64,000 nt of DNA from Bryoerythrophyllum caledonicum. Taxonomy: Eukaryota; Streptophyta; Bryopsida; Pottiales; Pottiaceae. The position numbers and the translations under genes are program-made. Shown here one piece after another: positions 6,161 to 63,039 of the stretch; position 1 is the stretch's first letter, and every line of letters starts with the position of its first letter. The DNA is taken from assembly GCA_963971425.1 (NCBI GenBank), contig OZ020526.1:6413976-6477975 (forward strand), read 5' to 3'. The notes under the pieces are model-generated. The model saw nothing but the letters and a program-made list of their open reading frames with translations. It searched no databases and had not been told where the DNA came from.

Positions 6161-8281
6161 ATGAGTACTGGAAATCGGTGCTAATCTACCCCTCGCATAG
6201 CTACTACGAAAAAAAATAGCGGAGTAGAAGCACATAGAAGGACCAATAGTGTAGAGTTCCAAGAAAATCCTAAAAACAACCCACGCCCTAGACAAACCAA
6301 ATCTACCAACACCTCTAGAACAGAAGCCACACCCGCCAAAACAAGACCGGTGACCTCAAAACAATTGGCAACCTCATCTCTAGAGCGTGATCTCACCCCC
6401 AAACCACGAGGTAGGAAGAAGAAGGCACTGGAAACTAACCCCAACCCACCTCAACAACAACAACCAAAGTCCCCAATCCATCTCTCAGACGACCAAGAAG
6501 ACGCCCCTCTCACATTCTCTAGAACGAGCCAAAAGCGTAGGATTACCACTTCTCTCCCACTATCTCCTGACCACACAAATCAACCCTCCTCCATCGAACC
6601 TTGGAACACTATGGAACAACTTCAGAAGGAGCCCAACAGTACCACCGAAGCCATGGACATAGAAAATGGAGAAACCATCTCTAAGATGATCTGCAAGGAT
6701 AAAACCTCTATCCTCAACCCCCTCAAAGTACAACACCCTGCAAAGAAACAAAGAGGTAGCATCCCAGACCCAAACCCTAGCAGTAGCACCCCAGACAAAT
6801 CCACATTCCACTTCTGGTTGGGCTTCCCCAGTATGGAGAAGCTTGCGAAGGACGCAAACCTCGACCCACTATTTAGTGGTGAGAGCGTTCCTGACATGAT
6901 GATCAGAGGGGTACCCAAGTCAAAGGCAGAGGAAGCCATGAGTGCCACAATATCATACCCAAGAATCCCACAAATGCTATATTATAAGGTTAGGGAAGAT
7001 GGTGTTGAGGGGCAACATTATAACCTCACACAACTCCCATTTGATATTGCCACTAACCCTGATACTGGCCTATCATATGATTTTCATGTAGCCATCTTGT
7101 TCGAACTACCTAAGACCCCACTATTCCACGATGATGTCAAGAGGCTTGCTAAGGAGAGACTCACTAAGATGGACATTCCCCTTGGTACTAACCTTTTGGA
7201 TCCCCTTGCCATCCACTGCAAAGGAGTAAAAAATGAAGGACAAAAACATGTCTTTTCAGGACTAATCAAGATGCACCTCCTCAACCCAGCAACAGATGCC
7301 ATCTCTCTACTCAAGGGCACACGCTATTTCATGTTACAACTGGACCCCATGGGACCGCTGTCCTTGGGAAAAGTTTGCAATACATGGCACGCGGTGGCAC
7401 GTCAAGGTCTATCTGTCAACATCAAGAGCGACAACCTATGTGGTATTCCTGCTCATACCTTGTTTCTTAATGGCTTCACTCGTAACCTTGAGTTTGAAAT
7501 CATTGATGTCCAGAAACAGGAAAAGGAGCCCTTCGCATGGATTGTGGTACCCACTCCTACCCAAGCGAAGAAACTAGCGATGCACCAGATTACGACCTTC
7601 CATGAGATCATCCCCGCGAAGCTCAGCAACTCTGGAACCTTTACAACCAATGATAGGGCCAAGAGGGATGCGCTTACACTCGCATTATCTCAGCTACCAA
7701 TCCTGCTGAGCGTGGTTGAAACCACGAAGGCCATCACAAAAGCTTTGGAGGCCAAGAGCATTGTCAACATTTGGTTCCACCGGCAGATTAGTGGCAAACA
7801 CAATGGCTCTGCCAATGTGCAAGTCACTAATCCTATTGTCTATAGACAATACCTTAATCAAACCTTCAATATTCGTTGTCACGAAGTTGAGATTCGACCG
7901 CACCGCCGTAGTCTTGATGGCAGTGACCCCCCCTCCACCACCTTGGTAGAGAAATGGGGATTCAATGACATAAACACTGCCTTGGTGAACACGGTAGCCG
8001 CCATCAACCCCACCACCGTTCCCAACACCAACATACACGAAAAGATGGCCGCTATTGTGGCGGATGGCCACGAAAAACTTCGCTTGGAGCTATCCACTCT
8101 CAAGAGAGACATCATTCGAGAGACTAGAGAATACACAGACGCCCGCAACGCCGAGGTATACTCTAAACTTGATGATGTTGAGAAACTAATGAGCGCCGCT
8201 TTGTCTCTGATGAAGGGTATCAAAGCCAATCAAGAGAAGTCATCCCTCCCCTCCTTGGATGACCCGTCAAACGTGGATTGA
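6161..8281 (+). pseudogene. LINE ORF1 protein, one premature stop
   Basis: The frame opens at ATG 6161, meets a TAA at 6182-6184 after seven codons, and then stays open to the TGA at 8279-8281, about 706 codons in all. The first ATG after the stop is at 6611. The N-terminal 150 residues are basic and rich in P, Q, S and T. A globular section of roughly 350 residues follows. The last 90 residues are charged with heptad-like leucines and look like a coiled coil. No CCHC zinc knuckle is visible. Position and composition fit a LINE nucleic-acid-binding ORF1, but the family was not recognised by motif. Codon and base use is far less G-poor than in ORF2. Confidence 0.65.
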
Positions 8282-9254
8282 CCAAAGACCGCCCACGAAC
8301 TCTTCAACAACATGGTGATCACCAAACTCCTACACACCTAGCTACATCTCTCTTGTTAGTCACATCTCTTTCCATTACTTCATATATCCACCTCATTACT
8401 CCCTTTTCCCCTCTCCACCTGATAGTATTGTTAGTGATATATCTCATTAAAATCACTTCTTATTGCTCTCTCCACACACCTAGCACCCTCATCACTCTCT
8501 CTACACCTTCTACCTCCCTAGAACTTGTAGCTCCCTATAGGTATTTCCTTGTAAACACATGTCATTGGTATGAGTATAAACCCACGAAAAGGCCACAACC
8601 TCCCTCATGGGCTCCTCTAACTTTTATGACAAAGTTACATGATCAATACCACCACAAAAATATACACACTTCTTGTCATTGCCAATGGCATTGGCATATT
8701 ACCAAAATTTCTACTACCACACACATAACACACACCAAAAAACACAAAATACCACCACAACCTTGCCAACAACAAAAGCAACTAACCACAAACAACACAT
8801 ATAAACATCCTCACACCTCACTACCAATAGATTACAAAACACTACTATTACCTAACACACTCATTCAATTATCGTGCAAAAACAAACACCAACCGCAAAC
8901 TACGCTACCACATATGCTCATCACCCAAAACGCTAAACACCTCGTCCACTCACACACTATCACAAACACATACCCCCAAAATCAATACACCATAAACAAC
9001 AAACATACTACACTGACCCACCACACCACACCAAGTATACACACATCCATTACCAAACCCCACCCCCGTTAAACACAGCAACACCGAGTCCACAACATAC
9101 TCTAATCACAATTCCATCAACTCCAAAAAAATGCCCCACAAGAAAACCAACACAAACAAAAATAAAAATAGACAATAAAAATGAAATAGACATCATAACC
9201 ACAAGGGAAAACAATATACTACACATTTATACAAAAACAAAAACATCTAATAAC
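8282..9254 (+). other. LINE inter-ORF spacer, A/C-rich
   Basis: This spacer lies between ORF1 and ORF2. It is very poor in G on the plus strand from about 8700, full of CACACA and AACACC words. A stop-free stretch at 8278-9072 has a non-ATG start and low-complexity H/T/N-rich translation, explained by composition alone. No gene is supported. Confidence 0.6.
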
Positions 9255-12200
9255 ATGAATGCACTCACTACCCCTACATTGACCAAAAACACAAATACTT
9301 TGATAAATACTTTGACATACCCAACCAAAGACCCACATACACACTCAAACACACATAGTCTCAAAAAAATAAAGAAACATCCAAAATCCACACATAAAAA
9401 AAAAGCTCTAAAACACAACACCAAATCCAAATACACAAAACTCCTACTACTCCTAGGTGGAGACATAGAAACCAATCCAGGACCAATGCCTAACATGTTA
9501 AAAACACACCCCTCATCACATAAGAAAAATGCCAAAATATACTTTATACCAAAATACCATAATACTACATCCGGAATATAAACACATCGCCCAAACATTT
9601 GCACCACTATTAAAAGCAACACATGCACTACATCATTCACACAACACCACACACCCAAATATTGCCCAATACATACAAAAACAAAATATTCACCCACCAA
9701 CACACATATTATATGCTCTAGTAATAACCACCCATCCAAACATAAACGAATGTAACCATCTTCTAAACCTACAAAACCCGAATACAACTACATGGACAAA
9801 CACACTATTACAAGCTTTATCAAACCTACAAAATCCACCCGAAAGACATATCCATATCCCACACCCTTTTACAAAATTCCTTGCAGAAAATCAAAATATC
9901 ATAAACCACGGAAACTCAATACACAACGAATTATATAACTTCATACATAGCCAAACAATACCACCCTCAAACAATACAATAAAACAAAAATTTCCATACC
10001 TCCCTAACAATCTAATCAACGAAACACTAAAATGTTTAGATCCCATAACAGAATACACCCACCCACCCCCTCCCCCCCTCTTCCTCCCCCCACAAAACCA
10101 ATACACCAGCACAAACAACGACAAATACAAACATCATCACATGGAACACATCATCCCTCAACACCGCTCTCCCTAGCTTAAAAGCTGTGACCACATATAT
10201 AGAATCGCCACCGGCCCTAATAACCATTCAAGAAACAAAAATATCAGCCACAAAATCTATAAAATACATACAAAACACATTCCAAGAATATAAACTTATC
10301 TTTAATAACACACACGCACTAACGAGATGTATCCTACAACGAAGACCATATACACCGGGTCGCGGTGGCCTCCTTACACTAATACACAAAATATATGCCT
10401 ATCCGAGCAACATCAAAAAAATCCCTACCTCAATGCACATATCTCCCTACCTACAAATAATAAAAATTTCTAATCAACCTCTACAACCTTGGATAATCTT
10501 TCACATGTATATGCCATCCCACCCAGATGATAATAGATTTATCATAGACATTCAAAACAATATAACATCACAAATAAATTTAAACCCAAACCATACTTAC
10601 TTGATATGTGGAGACTTTAACAGAGACATATCACTAATTGGTAGACAAAATGGAAATTCCACCACCCCCCCTCAAACCATAGACTACGAATGGCGACACT
10701 TTACAAAAATCCTAAACTTTACCTACATAAAAACGGACACCCAATACTCTAGACAAGGAGGCTATAACTATAGTAATTGGAGCCTTATAGACGGCTTCTA
10801 CATAAACACAAATAACAATACACAATACACCTCCACTACAAACAAAGACATTATTCTAAACTCGGACCACTCGCCCATACAACTCCACATCCCAAATAAC
10901 ATATTAATAAGTTGTACCCCTATAAACACGAATAATACTATTATACGTATACTTAACCCGATCCCAAAAGATAATTTAGAAAAATTCAACACAAAGTTCT
11001 TTGAAGAAAACTCCATACAAATTGACTCTCTCATAAACATACTTAAAAATAATAACCAACTCACCCAAATTCAATGGCATGAAGCATGCCACACCCTAGA
11101 CACACTCATCAACAATATCTCTAATACAGTGGAACAAACTTGCAAAGCCCAACCAATACCACAAATGACAAACCGAACGTCACAACAAGGAGGTTATTTA
11201 CCCCGTAAACTTTCCAAAATTTGGAAACAACACCTAACTACATACCATATAATACGAAAAACCATCAGAACGGTAAAAAACCACCCACAATGGCGTAACC
11301 ATCCCATATGTAATGAACTACTAGCTTTATACCACACCCAAATCCCTGCTCCACCTCCCCCGGAACTTTCCCATGATACATGGATAAAAGACATTGCACT
11401 AATCGCTAAAAATGGAAATATTCAAGCCCGGAAAATAACTATAAAATATTCAAAAGACAATATTAAAAAACCCATCTCAAAATACAGACAATTATACGAA
11501 ACTAGCCCTAGGAAAATAAATAGAAAAGTTTTTTGAAAACTAGAAACCCCACCAGTAGATTGTATCACAGATCAATATAACAACATTCTAACTAGCCCGA
11601 AAGACATTGCAAACATAATATACAACCAACAAACAAAAATCAACAGACCCACGGTACCAACATGCAACTACCAACCACAACACTCAGCCGAATGCACATG
11701 TGCAGTGCGTCAGTACCCATGGCATGACCTCGACGGTTTTACTTTAGACAAACGAGGTGAACCAGAAATCCCATTACACACATACTTCAATAGAGCTATA
11801 TATGACACATGTCTCCATAACCTTGAAAACAACAAAACCCCAGGGCCAGACCGCATACCGAATTCAATACTCAAACACATGCCTCCAAGATATAATAAAT
11901 TACTATTTCTATTATTTTCTCATTGCTATAAACAAAAACAAATGCCAGCCTCATGGAAAACAAGTGCAACAATCTTACTAAACGAAAAAGGTGATCCCTC
12001 AATTCTACCAAATCATAGACCAATTGCATTAGCCAACACAACATATAAACTCTTCACTAGTACACTCACCTATATATTATCCTCATACGGTGAAAATTTT
12101 AAAACACTACACGATAGCCAAAAAGGATATAGAGCAGAGAGAAGTACCTCTAGACAAATACAAACAATAATAGTTGCACTCGAAGACGCAAAATTCACAA

Positions 12201-12748
12201 ACCAAGACATATATGTTTTATATGTTGACTTCAAAAACGCATTTGGATCTATAGACCACGGCCGTCTATTAGCAATAATGACTGATGTTGGATACCCCAA
12301 AGATGCAATTACACTAGTTGGAAATATATACTCCCAATCATCTACTTACTACACCGGAGAGCACTTTGGTAAAACTAAGTCCATCCCCATCCATAGAGGC
12401 ACTATACAAGGAGACACCCTTAGTCCATACTATTCATAATATTTTTAGAGCCACTACTTAGATGGCTAGAGCAAGGCAATTATGGATATACGTTTGGTAC
12501 ATCACAAATCACCATAAACTCCGCCGCATATGCCGATGACCTTGCTATTATAACTAACAAAACCACATCTCTACAAACACAGATTGATAAAATCGATAGA
12601 TATTGTAAATGGACGGGTATGGACGTAGGCGTCCCAAAATGCACTGCTACTGGATGCCCGAACAAATCCAAAATAAATCCAACTACATTTAAAGCCCTAA
12701 TGCAAGCTTCTAACATTAACTACCGTGGTCAACCAATCCCCATACTCA
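9255..12748 (+). pseudogene. LINE ORF2: 2A-like leader, AP endonuclease, reverse transcriptase (broken, 3'-truncated)
   Basis: ORF2 is recognisable across three frames. It starts at ATG 9255 and has a frameshift near 9530-9580. A second near 10100-10130 leads into the endonuclease, whose motifs are WNTSSL (about 10144), QETK (about 10230), ICGDFNRD (about 10605) and NSDHSP (about 10858). An in-frame TGA at 11534-11536 precedes the RT domain. RT motifs include KTPGPDRIPNS (about 11835), NHRPIAL (about 12010), VDFKNAFGSID (about 12225) and GTIQGDTLSP (about 12400). A frameshift near 12430-12440 then leads to the catalytic AYADDLAI box (about 12527). The reading frame ends at about 12748, where foreign sequence starts, so the C-terminal part is lost. 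The copy cannot encode an active enzyme. Confidence 0.85.
9441..9485 (+). other. 2A-like ribosome-skipping motif at N-terminus of ORF2
   Basis: The translated motif is a run of five leucines followed by GGDIETNPGP, matching the D(V/I)ExNPGP consensus of 2A peptides. It sits about 63-77 residues from the ORF2 ATG and upstream of the frameshift near 9530. In the established 2A mechanism the ribosome skips the last Gly-Pro bond, so an N-terminal leader of about 76 residues would be released from the ORF2 polyprotein. Activity here is inferred from the motif only. Confidence 0.8.
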
Positions 12749-13693
12749 GGGTTGTTCGGCTGTCCGTCCGTTCGGTAGTGTCCGTCCGTCCGGTTGTCTG
12801 TCCGGTAGAGGCTGTTGTCCGTTCGATAAGGGTCAACCCTGGTTTGACCATGAGTCGAGGTCCATCCTCTTTGCCTGGAATTAGCGTGTAGCCTTCACCC
12901 GTTACAGCGTTGGTAATTCGCCATCGACGTTTGTGCCTAGAACTTCGAGACCGTTTAACCTCGTATTTTAGGGTATGCCAGTTTGAAGTCAGAAAAACCG
13001 GTGGATCATTGTATTCTTCAACCGTGTTATCTCCTGCGGTACGAATATCAAAATCAAATCGCCAGTAGACATGATGATGGTGGCGATTGCAGACACAGGA
13101 ATCATTGACTGCTGTAAAACCAAAACGGGGACGAATGGTTCCATTGGCATGAAGCCGCCACTCGCTAACGTAGCGATACCAGCCTGCTTCCATTTCGCTG
13201 ACTAGGACAACCTCCTGACCCTCGACATAAATGGCAACGCCCAAGAAGTTACCGGTATCGCTGCCGGTATCGAGAATCGTCTTGGCTGGGGTCGAACAGA
13301 GCCTAAATCCAGGCGCTACATCTGTTCCTCTAGCTTGAATCATCCCCTCCTCATACTGCCAGTCTCGATAGGGACCACAAATATCTTGATCATAGCGGAC
13401 GTTCAAGATGGGAACATGCGCTCGGTAAAGCACTCGCTTGCCCCGATACTCGACATAGCGCAGCTCAACGCCTGAACCATTTGTGCCAGATGAGGCAGCA
13501 GGTCTGACCGCCTGAAATTTCCATAGAGTGCTACCGCCCTGGCTCACTGTAACGTTCACCTGTCCAGCCGTTCCTTTATCAGCTGTCGGTTGGTCTGCAT
13601 CATTAGGCGCACCACAGACTTGATCTCCGGCACGAGAACTCGCAGGGGATCTATTTTCAAATCGCGTGACTGTGCGATTTGCCAGGTTGACAC
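12729..13693 (-). CDS. Partial copper-amine-oxidase-like protein, bacterial in appearance
   Basis: One long uninterrupted frame runs on the minus strand from the gap edge to about 12729, so the N-terminus is lost in the gap. The translated segment resembles the C-terminal catalytic domain of copper amine oxidases: a strand LRYVEYRGKRVLYRA, then GVAIYVEGQEVVLVSEMEAG, WRLHANGTIRPRFGF, an HHHHVYWRFDFDI block equivalent to the HxH copper ligands, and WRITNAVTGEGYTLIPG near the end. The cofactor Tyr context (normally N-Y-D/E) reads W-Y-R, so classical oxidase activity is doubtful. The last residues run into the GTCCG array and the TGA lies in LINE sequence, so the natural end is unclear. Base composition (about half GC, no introns) differs from the flanking A/C-rich LINE. 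Possible origins are horizontal transfer, contamination joined by misassembly, or a captured gene. Confidence 0.5.
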
Positions 13694-14100
13694 NNNNNNN
13701 NNNNNNNNNNNNNNNNNNNNNNNNNNNNNNNNNNNNNNNNNNNNNNNNNNNNNNNNNNNNNNNNNNNNNNNNNNNNNNNNNNNNNNNNNNNNNNNNNNNN
13801 NNNNNNNNNNNNNNNNNNNNNNNNNNNNNNNNNNNNNNNNNNNNNNNNNNNNNNNNNNNNNNNNNNNNNNNNNNNNNNNNNNNNNNNNNNNNNGACGTAG
13901 CCGCGGACAACCCCGGACAGCCCGAGACAGCCCGCGGACTGCCACGGACAGCGCGCGGACTGCCGCGGGCTGCCCGCGGACTACAAGCGACAGTGGTTCG
14001 GACTGGCCGCGGACTGAGCGCGGACTAGCAGCGGACTGAGCGCGGACAGCCTTCGATGACGGAGTGAGGCGCGGATTGGCGCGGACACTCCTTTGACCCA
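12749..14100. repeat. Segment bounded by inverted GTCCG / CGGAC arrays, with scaffold gap
   Basis: The left edge (12760-12830) is an array of GTCCGTCCGTTCGG-type words. The right edge (13894-14090) is an array of the complementary type (CGCGGACTG, CGGACAGC). The arrays are thus inverted relative to each other around a CuAO-like ORF and the N gap. A near-palindrome GGTCAACCCTGGTTTGACC lies just inside the left array (about 12830). The segment abruptly interrupts the LINE. It may be a transposon-like unit with captured DNA, or an assembly chimera. Confidence 0.5.
13694..13893. other. Assembly gap (200 N)
   Basis: Exactly 200 Ns are present, a typical placeholder length, so the true distance across the gap is unknown. 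Confidence 0.99.
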
Positions 14101-54626: not shown

Positions 54627-56279
54627 ATGAGTGTACCCGTGTCTAGCATTGGGCGTCCGCCAAGAGTTGCCACGGTCAAGGGCCGTGAATTTACATTACA
54701 TGAGCAACATGAGATCATTTCTTATCGTGAAGAGATATTGGCTTCGGGTCACAAAATTACCAACAAAGCATTATGTGAGTGGGCGAATATCAAGTTCAAC
54801 AATATTGCTTCTCAAGTCACGATTGGTAGATTGTTGAAACGGAAGACATCGGTGACTTCTATTGGTTTGGGTGATATGGGTACTTCCAAACGTATGAGGA
54901 AGGCACAATGTCCGGAAGTAGAGACGGTGGCTTTCAATTGGTTTGTGAGAATGCAAGAGAATGGTGTTGCATTATCGGATGATCTTGTGATAGCTTCGGC
55001 AAAGAGATTCTATGCAATATTACCGAGAGATGAAAGTGAGAAGGAACTTCAGTTTTCGAATGGATGGGTACAAAAATTCAAGAAGAGATTTCAGATCAAA
55101 GGTTTTGTTCGTCATTGAGAAGATGCTTCAGCGGATACTTTTCTAGCGGTTTTGCAGCAGATGGAGCATATCAAGGCTATAGTATCTATATACGACATTA
55201 AAGATGTTTTTAATATGGATGAGACTGGTCTTTTTTACAGATTAGAGCCTAATCGAACTCTAGCTACAGAACGAGTGTCTAGGAAGAAGAAACTAAAAGA
55301 GCGCATTACGGTGGCTTTGACTGCAAATGGGGATGGAAGCATTTGTCTTCCTCCATTAGTAATAAATCAGTATTTGAAACCAGAAGCATTTACTTCAAGG
55401 CATATTTTAAATCCAGAAAACTTAGGCATTACGTGGTTCGCGAATAAGAAGGCATGGATGACAACAACGATCTTTGAACAATTTATTATGGATTTTGAAA
55501 GGAAGATGGTTTTGGCAGGAAGAGAGAAGGTAATTCTCCTTGTTGATAATTTCTCTGGTCATCAATTGCCAAGTGTAGCTTCACGGTTGAGGGTGACAAA
55601 ACTTTTATTTTTGCCTCCAAATACAACAAGTCGTTTCCAACCTATGGATGCAGGCATTATAGCCTCTTTTAAGGCTCATTACAGGAAATCAGTGATAGAG
55701 CATCAATTAGAATGTGTTATGGCAGAAAAAGAATTCAAAATTCATGTGTATCATGTAGTGATTATGGTTGAAAGAGCATGGCGTTTTGGGGTTACAGCTC
55801 AAACAATTAAGAATTGTTGGAGCCATATGGGTATTTTTTCCAATGCTATAGTGAATCAGGGAGAAGAAGTTAGCTGTCTGACAAAGGTTGCTGAAGTGGC
55901 GGCCTTGCTTGAGGGATTAACATTGTTATCATCTGAGACTGAAGAAGATGATACTACGGAGGCTTAGGAGTTCATCAATTTTGAGCTCGAATTTGATTTG
56001 AATAATCCTTATCAACCCACTGATGAGGATATTTTAGACTATCTACCCTCTGAAGATCAAGATTGTGATTTAGATGAGGATACGATAGATGTTGAAGATG
56101 TGATAAGGTTTAATGATGCAGAGCGTTGCCTTGAGACTTTGAAGAATTTCTTGCAACAACAATCGGAGAATGTTCATTCGGATGTGAAGAATTTACAAGA
56201 TCTACAGAAGAAAATTTGCAATTGGCGCATGAAAGAATCTCGGCAAACCACAATAGATTCTTATTTTGAATCAACGTAG
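54627..56279 (+). pseudogene. Pogo/Tigger-type transposase with two in-frame stops
   Basis: One continuous frame of about 550 codons from ATG 54627 is broken only by TGA (55116-55118) and TAG (55965-55967). The N-terminal part has a CENP-B-like helix-turn-helix (FTLHEQHEIISYREEI, then NIASQVTIGRLLKR). A second DNA-binding helical region follows (ETVAFNWFVRMQ to ELQFSNGWVQKFKKRF). The DDE_1 catalytic domain shows FNMDETGLFY (first Asp), LLVDNFSGHQ (second Asp) and PPNTTSRFQPMDAGIIASFK (third Asp), the D-D-D pattern of pogo/Tigger/Jerky enzymes. The tail is acidic (YQPTDEDILDYLPSEDQD). The first stop falls between the DNA-binding and catalytic domains, the second at the acidic tail, so the copy is probably inactive unless stops are read through. 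Confidence 0.92.
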
Positions 56280-60347: not shown

Positions 60348-63039
60348 AAAACCTTTGCGTGTAATTTAGTGGAAACTGTGTGTAAAGTTTACAGGAAGTT
60401 GATTCTTTAGTTGAAGTTCTGGCACTTGAATTCCCATTTTTCCAGTGGTGTTAGGAACTAGGGGTTAATCACTTTTAGTCACAAGTAGTTTCAGAAAGGG
60501 TGATACGCTTTTGTTAGAGAAAGTGCTGCTTCCATTCTTAAGCTCAAGATGGGATGTTGTATTATGTTTCAATGGATATTTACGCTTGAATCTTGTTTGG
60601 ATTCACTAGAGAGAGGGATGACCAATAAACGTTGTCATTCCACCCTTGACGATAATTTTGGCCTTCTCTTTGGGCTATGTAGTAAAGATGGATTTCTATA
60701 TAGTGTAGTTTGAAATCTTTGGCTTTTTTACACTTTAAATCATGAAGATTATCTTTGATGGAGTCAAACTTTTGTGAGAAAAATAAGTTTCAAAGTCAAC
60801 TTTTACCATTGTTAAATGATTGAAATTAATTATTTTCTAGTGAACGCAAATTGAGTACTTGCTACCATGGGATAGTATTTTCTACTAATTTCAAAGATAT
60901 AGAGGATCTCTTGGAATGAAAATAATTTCTTGTTCCGCAGTTCATGTTTTGAGGCCTCGAAGCAAGAGTATAATTTGGTGAGGGTGTGCATGTGTAATGG
61001 TTGTTTTGGATAGCAGAGCACAACCCTTGTGACTTTTAAGGGTGGCCTTGCAGGGCTTGAGCATGCCTAAGCGTTTCCTGGAAGAATTGTTGAACACTAC
61101 TAGCAATCTTGTCACTCCTCACTTACTATTTTAAGAATTTTAGAAGTAAGTGTTTTGATCCGGTCACAATAAAGAAGGAAAAAAATCCTTTTCTACATTC
61201 CTCATAAGTATAGGGCAACAGTTTTGGAGTGAGGAGCGACAAGATTGCTTGTAGAGGAAGATGGTCGTAGTAGAAACACGTGGTGGGATTAAAATGTCCT
61301 CACAATTTGCACTTGTATGCATGGCAAGCATCTAAGAAAGTAAGCATAATGCTGCGGTTTTTTCCCATATAAAAATCTCAAAAATAAATTAAAAAATGTT
61401 GAGTTTAGGATTAGAGACTTGAGGATTGTAATTTTTTATTACTAGTTATGTGGGGGATGAGTGTATGTGCACTATTTCTGCAAATACACTCACCCCTCTC
61501 ATAAGTTATAGCCAAATCTAGCGCCGGTTGATGGAGGTGGTAAGAACTTAGTAGACACTAGATGTTAGTAGTGGATTTAGTAGAGATTTGGTAACTTCAA
61601 CCCAATTTCATCTCCATCCACATGCCATCATTTTCTAAAACCTGAGTGCCAAAAACCGCCATGTAAGGGCGTTGTACCAAGTTTTGTTATAAAGCATTAC
61701 ACAAGATTCTATATATAACAAAACCAAATCACTAGAAAATCAAACAGCAACATAGCATTTTCAAGCACATCATTCCATGGTACTATGCCAAGTGTACATC
61801 CCAAATTTAGCAGCTACTAATCTACCTCGGTAGCATGTCATGAACCTCAAAATGGTGATTTGAAGTTGAGACACGCTAGCAGTGGTCATACCGCAAGAAT
61901 GGTAAGGTTATAGTCAGCTAAGGTTATAAGTTAGTCACAACATTATAACTCATTAGAGGTATAGCTTATGGGGAGGGATGAGTGTACATATTCTAACGTG
62001 CATCAAGAAGGGGATAGACCACTATAAACCACGGTTACAGGAAATAGTATGGGTGTCTCCAAATAGTGTGGTCCACACTTCATAAGGAGCATTCCCATCT
62101 AAAGACGTGGAATAACTTATTCAAGATACTGAAAAATCATGCATAAGGGTTCCATAAAACTTCAATGTGTTTAGGGTTTGGGGCACTAAACCCTAAAGCG
62201 CATTGTACACTAAGGAAATTGATGACGTCCTCCGGAAGATAGGAAAGGTCTCCAGGATAAGATGGAATAGAGTTGGGTGGAATCTGCCTTCGTGTAAGTT
62301 GATGGGGGACTTGAGCGTGGGCCTGGGTTTCATTATTAGAGAGCACACTTGGACGAAGCAGATGGGCTCCATGTGCCTCTTGCTTGCACACTTTGGGCGC
62401 TGATCTAAATACATCCGTTTTCTATTCTATGGTTGAGAGGCCCAGAGTATCACGAGGTGGCAACCGTGGGACGCTACGATAGCTCAACAGAGTTTCTATT
62501 CATACAAATAAATTAGTATGTGACATAGGCAGAGAGCCCCGACAACTTAAGGTGTGACTATTTCCACACCTTGTTGAATTCGAACAATACTACACTCCAT
62601 CTTCCATGTGTACAAGTGTAAACTAATCAATCACCGCCCTGGCAAACTCTTCCGGGAAAAAAAATGTTACCTCGAGGAACGGTTCCACTCAAAAGAATAT
62701 CATTTACTACAAACTATATCCCTCACAGCCACAGTACTGGTGAAAACTCCAAGCCCTTGAGGTTCTTCTCATGCCACAGAAGAGGGCACACTGTGTACAA
62801 GATCATCTGTAGGGAGGAAAAAGCAATGAATGATCAGCAGCGGGAACATGTTTGGAGCTGACTCAATCCTGGTCACAAAAGAACTGAGAGAGAACAAGGA
62901 AGGAAGGAAGAAGCCGTCTCACCTTCAAGTTTGGAGGGTGAGTAAGTTGCAGCCAGAAGTTTTTCACCGGCTGGACCTCAACAAAGTTTAAGATTATGAT
63001 CACGTTGTCCTAAGTTCGTTTCTTCACACTTGGCAGGGT
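60348..63039. other. AT-rich intergenic region
   Basis: No gene is supported. Short frames at 60830-61021 and 62137-62414 have no recognisable features. Confidence 0.55.

Follow-up and report, generated by a model that had tools for sequence, protein, structure and literature searches.

A probable StopGo (2A) recoding site at the start of ORF2 in a large LINE family of a land plant

We report a 2A-like motif directly upstream of ORF2 in a LINE of a land plant, and we consider it likely to be a natural StopGo (2A) recoding site of a large, apparently recently active, family of non-LTR retrotransposons. This reading is built on features present in the DNA itself, namely the motif, its position, its open frame, its number in the genome, its synonymous variation, the point at which residue conservation begins and the decay of its upstream duplicates.

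In the proposed mechanism, a leader of variable sequence and low complexity would first be read by ribosomes in the 2A frame. At the sequence [K]-L-[L/I]3-[G/S/C]-G-D-I-E-T-N-P-G↓P, the nascent chain would stall the peptidyl transferase centre; after the Gly residue the leader would come free, and translation would resume at Pro. The ORF2 protein (ORF2p), comprising the endonuclease, reverse transcriptase (RT), PCIF1-like and RNase H domains, would thereby begin uniformly at P-M-P-N. Skipping and its efficiency, like the place where leader translation starts, are what we infer, and the activity of the family is inferred from identical copies.

The motif and its element in the analysed window

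The window, i.e., the whole analysed stretch of 64,000 nucleotides, is located on contig C15 of a genome of 437 Mb in 894 contigs. A WRKY domain and an F-box protein are encoded in the window, and outside it the genome also holds a LEAFY domain (best E = 1.3e-27; the same search matched 0 of 14 control genomes); the host is therefore a land plant.

Positions 9441-9485 of the plus strand translate to LLLLLGGDIETNPGP, in agreement with the preliminary description, which had reported an L-rich stretch with GGDIETNPGP. The DIETNPGP core conforms to the 2A/StopGo consensus (D/G/C/N)(V/I)ExNPGP, and it was the single match to [DGCN][VI]ExNPG when all six frames of the window were scanned. A second bare NPGP was located on the minus strand, at 62329. 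The frame that holds the motif contains an ATG at 9255, is open further 5′, and closes 31 codons past the motif with a stop at 9579-9581, after a frameshift. The coordinates of the element are given in Table 1.

Table 1. Features of the LINE copy in the window.
Feature	Position	Strand	Basis
ORF1 of the element, 643 aa, no Pfam family	6350..8281	+	identity to ORF1 of L041, L044 and L042
A/C-rich spacer/leader, from ORF1 to the 2A motif	8282..9440	+	sequence; family-wide traits
Stop-free frame holding the motif, 214 codons	8937..9578	+	translation
L-rich stretch LLLLLGG, immediately 5′ of the core	9441..9461	+	translation; L/I and G kept in 31 copies
2A/StopGo core octapeptide DIETNPGP	9462..9485	+	translation; genome counts; sample drawn without pattern selection
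Predicted skip point	between G (ends 9482) and P (9483-9485)	+	
Conserved ORF2 start (MPNMLKTHPSSHKKNAKIYFIP, thereafter out of frame) to the stop of the motif frame	9486..9578	+	translation; relatives
Remaining ORF2 N-terminal domain, in a different frame in this copy	9502..10173	+	relatives, where the matching residues are in frame
APE-type endonuclease part of ORF2, closed by an in-frame stop at 11534-11536	10049..11533	+	PF03372, E = 1.8e-5
ORF2 segment, first part of RT	11537..12436	+	PF00078, E = 5.5e-13
ORF2 segment, last part of RT, after another frame change	12424..12740	+	PF00078, E = 1.2e-8

The preliminary description had also placed a canonical 2A-like core at the N-terminal edge of a plant LINE ORF2, and the core, the APE and RT domains and the plant genes all uphold that assignment. 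It had missed that the upstream reading frame is ORF1 and that the copy is dead. Judged by its sequence, the copy in the window is dead, as ORF2 continues in several different frames once the motif frame has ended, and its 3′ part is gone. Similarity to ORF2 stops at about 12740, and the PCIF1-like and RNase H parts are absent, as seen by eye in comparison with the ORF2 of relatives. The frame downstream of the 2A motif is broken in this copy, while relatives are open on both sides.

Architecture of the family

The order of the element is ORF1, a hypervariable A/C-rich spacer, and the 2A motif joined to ORF2. The window ORF1 is 87% identical to an ORF of L041, 44% to one of L044 and 33% to one of L042, each of which lies 5′ of a 2A-ORF2; a Pfam search of ORF1 gave no match. 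Several copies were fetched twice and carry two labels (L012 = L039, L025 = L040, L027 = L041, L016 = L042, L026 = L043, L035 = L044). In L043, ORF1 and ORF2 form one frame through a poly-Q tract, which is probably due to a deletion in that copy, since the C-terminus of ORF1 is missing. We also observed that in L044 the region 5′ of ORF1 (7156-8499, minus strand) is open in the ORF1 frame, with 448 codons before the presumed start codon.

The 2A motif runs straight into PMPN and then into a conserved domain, about 210 residues long, which is 57-87% identical to the first of six aligned copies. In L040/L076, ORF2 contains, in this order, APE, RT, a PCIF1_WW-like domain (PF12237, E = 3.5e-12) and RNase H (E = 4.4e-13). 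In L040, PF03372 and PF00078 share a single frame, as expected of an APE-type non-LTR element; in the window copy, the two are split. The PCIF1-like domain, RNase H and the C-terminus are also present in the more distant L042, at 61-73% identity and with a frameshift. When solved structures were ranked against the RT, which is a ranking of PDB entries only, R2 proteins came first (E = 5.8e-30), ahead of 8c8j (E = 2.9e-20), presumably human LINE-1 ORF2p.

The PCIF1_WW-like domain of this LINE ORF2 lies at L076:271-687 (plus strand) and is also seen in L042/L097. PF12237, which we take to be the fold of the mRNA cap-adenosine methyltransferase, had 2614 candidate places in the genome, and all 150 that were scored exceeded the cut-off, not necessarily all of them in LINEs. 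The NPPF motif that we associate with PCIF1 seems to be replaced by AHPHNE in the LINE ORF2, and the domain may therefore be inactive.

Abundance in the genome

The degenerate pattern GAYRTNGARNNNAAYCCNGGNCC, which stands for D[V/I]ExNPGP, had 880 forward and 837 reverse exact matches, i.e., 1717 genome-wide, and the reversed pattern, used as a control, had 2 + 0. With MPN appended, the pattern had 780 + 728 = 1508 exact matches, with 0 + 0 for the reversed control. Flanks of this one LINE family were present in all 34 matches that were read with their surroundings (the first 30 listed, all on contig C1, and four without MPN).

The motif has only eight residues and the window copy is a pseudogene, which could point to a chance match or to contamination of the assembly. 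Chance is ruled out by the 1717 matches against 2 in the reversed-pattern control, and contamination by the spread of the matches over numerous large contigs in a genome that carries plant genes; we regard the likelihood of either as practically nil.

Sampling without the motif pattern

A sample independent of the motif was drawn with a 173-aa query from the region 3′ of it. The best 150 of 3638 candidate places were scored, and the query matched all 150. Diverged relatives were represented by 20 consecutive matches below 95% identity, with three near-repeats passed over; these were 87-92% identical to the query and thus represent one part of the family only. All 20 carried the motif or a decayed form of it at the expected place. 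Of these, 14 had an exact motif, in frame with the downstream sequence in all but one, and six had an altered core. As a cross-check of position, on contig C1 below 34.2 Mb a pattern match lay at the expected offset for 9 of 11 query matches, the two without it being C1:15990252 and C1:29192313.

Of the best 150 of the 3638 candidates, 41 showed 100% identity to the query; for 33 of them, a single frame runs on for 3087 codons without a stop. We retrieved 30 of the 41, and every one had the exact motif at a constant offset. Over 3519 bases, 22 of the 30 were identical (reference included), five differed at one base, and three differed at 280-695 positions in an ungapped comparison. The identical copies suggest that the family was recently active. 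The conservation among relatives for which the preliminary description had proposed a check is borne out. As for intact members lacking NPGP, which would have spoken against its proposal, none was seen in this non-exhaustive set, all 30 retrieved copies of the recent subfamily having the exact motif; six of the 20 diverged cores are altered, in copies that may or may not be otherwise intact.

One copy of this recent subfamily has an open frame at C1:3619848-3629108, of which 739 codons lie 5′ of the motif. No ORF1 turned up in the 4 kb 5′ of its motif, and the 5′ region is joined to the 2A leader in one frame. The subfamily without ORF1 (L040, L039) may depend on ORF1 in trans, or it may have originated from a spliced transcript; with respect to the latter, the junctions, compared with the minus strand of L075/L040/L076, are too diverged to tell. 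We must also note that this plus-strand copy (C1, about 3619848-3629108, the L040 region) is apparently nested in a minus-strand copy of the same family, between the ORF1 and the 2A motif of the latter.

Conservation at the motif

Conservation was examined in 31 copies, comprising 30 selected by the exact pattern and the window copy, which fall into 20 clusters at 90% nucleotide identity. The intactness of the core in the 30 holds by construction, and related copies in the set are not independent. We therefore considered the positions outside the search pattern as well. Each of the positions -6 to -3 was occupied by L or I in at least 30 of the 31 copies, position -1 was G in 30 of 31, and the MPN directly after the core was kept. 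Codons in and near the motif varied synonymously, and the x position of the core was free, with T, K, Q, A and I found when these copies, the genome-wide pattern matches and the sample drawn without the pattern are taken together.

Among 20 cluster representatives, mean pairwise residue identity was 0.08-0.31 at positions -50 to -21, 0.09-0.51 at -20 to -9, 0.34-0.9 at -8 to -1, 0.81-1.0 in the core and 1.0 in M-P-N. Past M-P-N it was uneven (0.18-1.0; past position +10, 0.18-0.9). On these alignments, residue conservation begins within about ten residues of the core.

The motif is contiguous with the conserved N-terminal domain of ORF2, and it could accordingly be an inherited structural peptide at the N-terminus of ORF2p that causes no skipping. 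We consider this improbable, as the residues that are kept are those of the StopGo motif with its x position free, conservation drops so close to the core on the 5′ side, and the second modules found further upstream (see below) have decayed.

An ATG stands directly 3′ of the motif in 31 of 31 copies, outside the search pattern. The main rival to StopGo is that ORF2 starts at this ATG, by scanning, by reinitiation or through an IRES-like A-rich leader, with the motif as a mere flank of the start codon. Scanning would suit both the A/C-rich, G-poor composition of the leader and the last 100 nt 5′ of the motif, where no ATG was present in any frame of the 31 copies, and the leader residues beyond the motif are nearly unconstrained. 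Nevertheless, the context of the ATG is weak: every one of the 31 copies has C at both -3 and +4, the former imposed by the pattern's Pro codon. Initiation at this codon also leaves two observations unexplained, i.e., the conservation of L-rich-G-D-I-E-x-N-P-G-P through synonymous codon changes and the depletion of stops in the 2A frame over 600 nt, described in the next section. Such a start is unlikely in our judgement, if somewhat less so than the structural peptide.

An open leader of no fixed length

Within the 600 nt 5′ of the motif, the 31 copies had 58 stops in the 2A frame, compared with 369 and 318 in the other two frames. For the 20 cluster representatives, the counts were 37 versus 221 and 202, and the 2A frame had the lowest count in all 20. 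The observed/expected N/S ratio was 0.23-0.30 downstream versus 0.55-1.24 in the leader (pairwise among the 31 copies, varying with distance and identity class). Because of this depletion of stops and these ratios, we conclude that the leader is kept open in the 2A frame, with its residues hardly constrained. The lengths of indels modulo 3 did not discriminate, since a clear excess of multiples of three was seen neither in the leader nor in the downstream ORF2.

The number of in-frame ATGs in the open stretch ranged from 0 to 10 per copy, with none in 14 of 31 (1.5 kb examined), and no upstream start common to all 31 copies was found in the open stretch within 1.5 kb. The preliminary description had proposed a leader of about 76 residues. 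The ATG that would give this length exists in the window; the fixed length is not supported, as the copies have no common start. The leader is hypervariable and, in some copies, contains decayed 2A modules. Leaders vary in length, sequence and start codons while the motif and its frame stay, and we therefore suppose that the motif standardises the N-terminus of ORF2p.

One subgroup has its 2A frame shifted by -1 with respect to ORF1. This frame is open across the ORF1 stop in five of eight copies (L010, L016, L018, L031 and L032) and not in L011, L015 and L030. Neither a start codon nor a slippery heptamer that might couple ORF1 to ORF2 was recognised by eye at the ORF1 stop or junction of this subgroup.

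Decayed second modules

A second 2A-MPN-like module was present within 1.5 kb 5′ of the motif in nine of the 31 copies, in the same frame in six of the nine; the one in L038 is a weak match. The core was lost in all nine, e.g., as NPRP, NRGP or GIPGP. Five of the nine are alike in form and probably have one origin. The module adjoining ORF2 is intact in all nine copies, yet it was itself selected by the pattern.

We tentatively propose, as an idea that may well prove wrong, that the 2A serves as a plug-in socket, or insulator, at the N-terminus. The element would repeatedly capture new upstream sequence, be it a promoter, a leader, tandem repeats or even an older 2A-ORF2 start, and StopGo would trim any leader that is translated, leaving ORF2p with a constant P-M-P-N start. 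If true, this would explain a leader that keeps its frame and is free in its residues, the lack of a common start, and the decayed 2A modules, and it would mean natural StopGo in a land plant in more than a thousand copies.

Comparison with known systems

Heras 2006 reportedly dealt with the 2A-like sequence of the trypanosome L1Tc element, and Odon 2013 is said to have covered 2A-like sequences in non-LTR elements of multicellular organisms. In the literature we searched, which excluded these two works and Rao et al. 2025 (Cell Rep), any of which may list one, no plant element with a 2A was found. Relatives in viral contigs were likewise absent among 223 stretches matching one of two peptide patterns. 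In non-LTR elements as such, 2A sequences are already known.

Three papers cite 2A sequences in APE-type non-LTR elements of trypanosomes and animals (PMC5972666, PMC12846837, PMC11512398). Judged from citations rather than from an alignment, those elements and the plant LINE share the core motif, the APE and RT domains and a motif in frame with the enzyme ORF. The plant LINE differs in its land plant host, in the PCIF1-like domain of ORF2, in its long hypervariable leader without a common start, and in the decayed modules of 9 of the 31 copies.

A 2026 survey of StopGo describes L-rich classes, motifs 2 and 6 (LLLLSG-like, p12 = D), in RNA viruses, with motif 6 active in rabbit reticulocyte lysate, and leaves 28% of known StopGo sites unclassified (PMC12846837). 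By eye, the plant motif resembles these classes in the L-rich hexapeptide that ends in G before p12 = D. It differs in that, among the 31 copies, p10 is G (19), S (7) or C (5), where A, S and C are named in that text, which places the G of the window copy outside, and p15 is T (27) or K (4), where S is named. The carrier here is a plant retrotransposon, and there RNA viruses. The survey also states that there is no evidence for natural use by plant viruses, though 2A works in plants (PMC12846837).

According to PMC4981915, a sea-urchin 2A located at the N-terminus is active in plant cells too (Nicotiana). The 2A signal sequences of sea-urchin NLR proteins are, like the motif described here, N-terminal (sequences unaligned); they double as secretion signals, whereas the plant LINE 2A follows a long polar leader. 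L1 and RTE are the two LINE superfamilies named for plants in PMC9033089. They share with our element the APE endonuclease and the RT, and RNase H also occurs in plant LINEs. Our LINE is distinguished from them by the 2A, the PCIF1-like domain, and an RT that is nearer to solved R2 proteins than to 8c8j in the PDB ranking.

With its 1717 intact motifs, and with copies that do not differ over kilobases, the family would demonstrate that StopGo is used naturally within a plant genome. It would also offer biotechnology many plant 2A variants shaped by natural selection, and a means to ask why a LINE should require a fixed start of its ORF2 product. The decayed modules further upstream, of which six of nine share the reading frame, would serve as built-in controls.

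Other elements in the window

A copper amine oxidase-like fragment (12732-13691, minus strand; PF01179, E = 2.7e-6, right at the cut-off) sits at the 3′ break of the LINE and adjoins a gap of 200 N at 13694-13893. At 54627-55967 of the plus strand, HTH_Tnp_Tc5 and DDE_1 domains are encoded in two adjoining ORFs, which we take to be a Pogo/Tigger-like DNA transposon.
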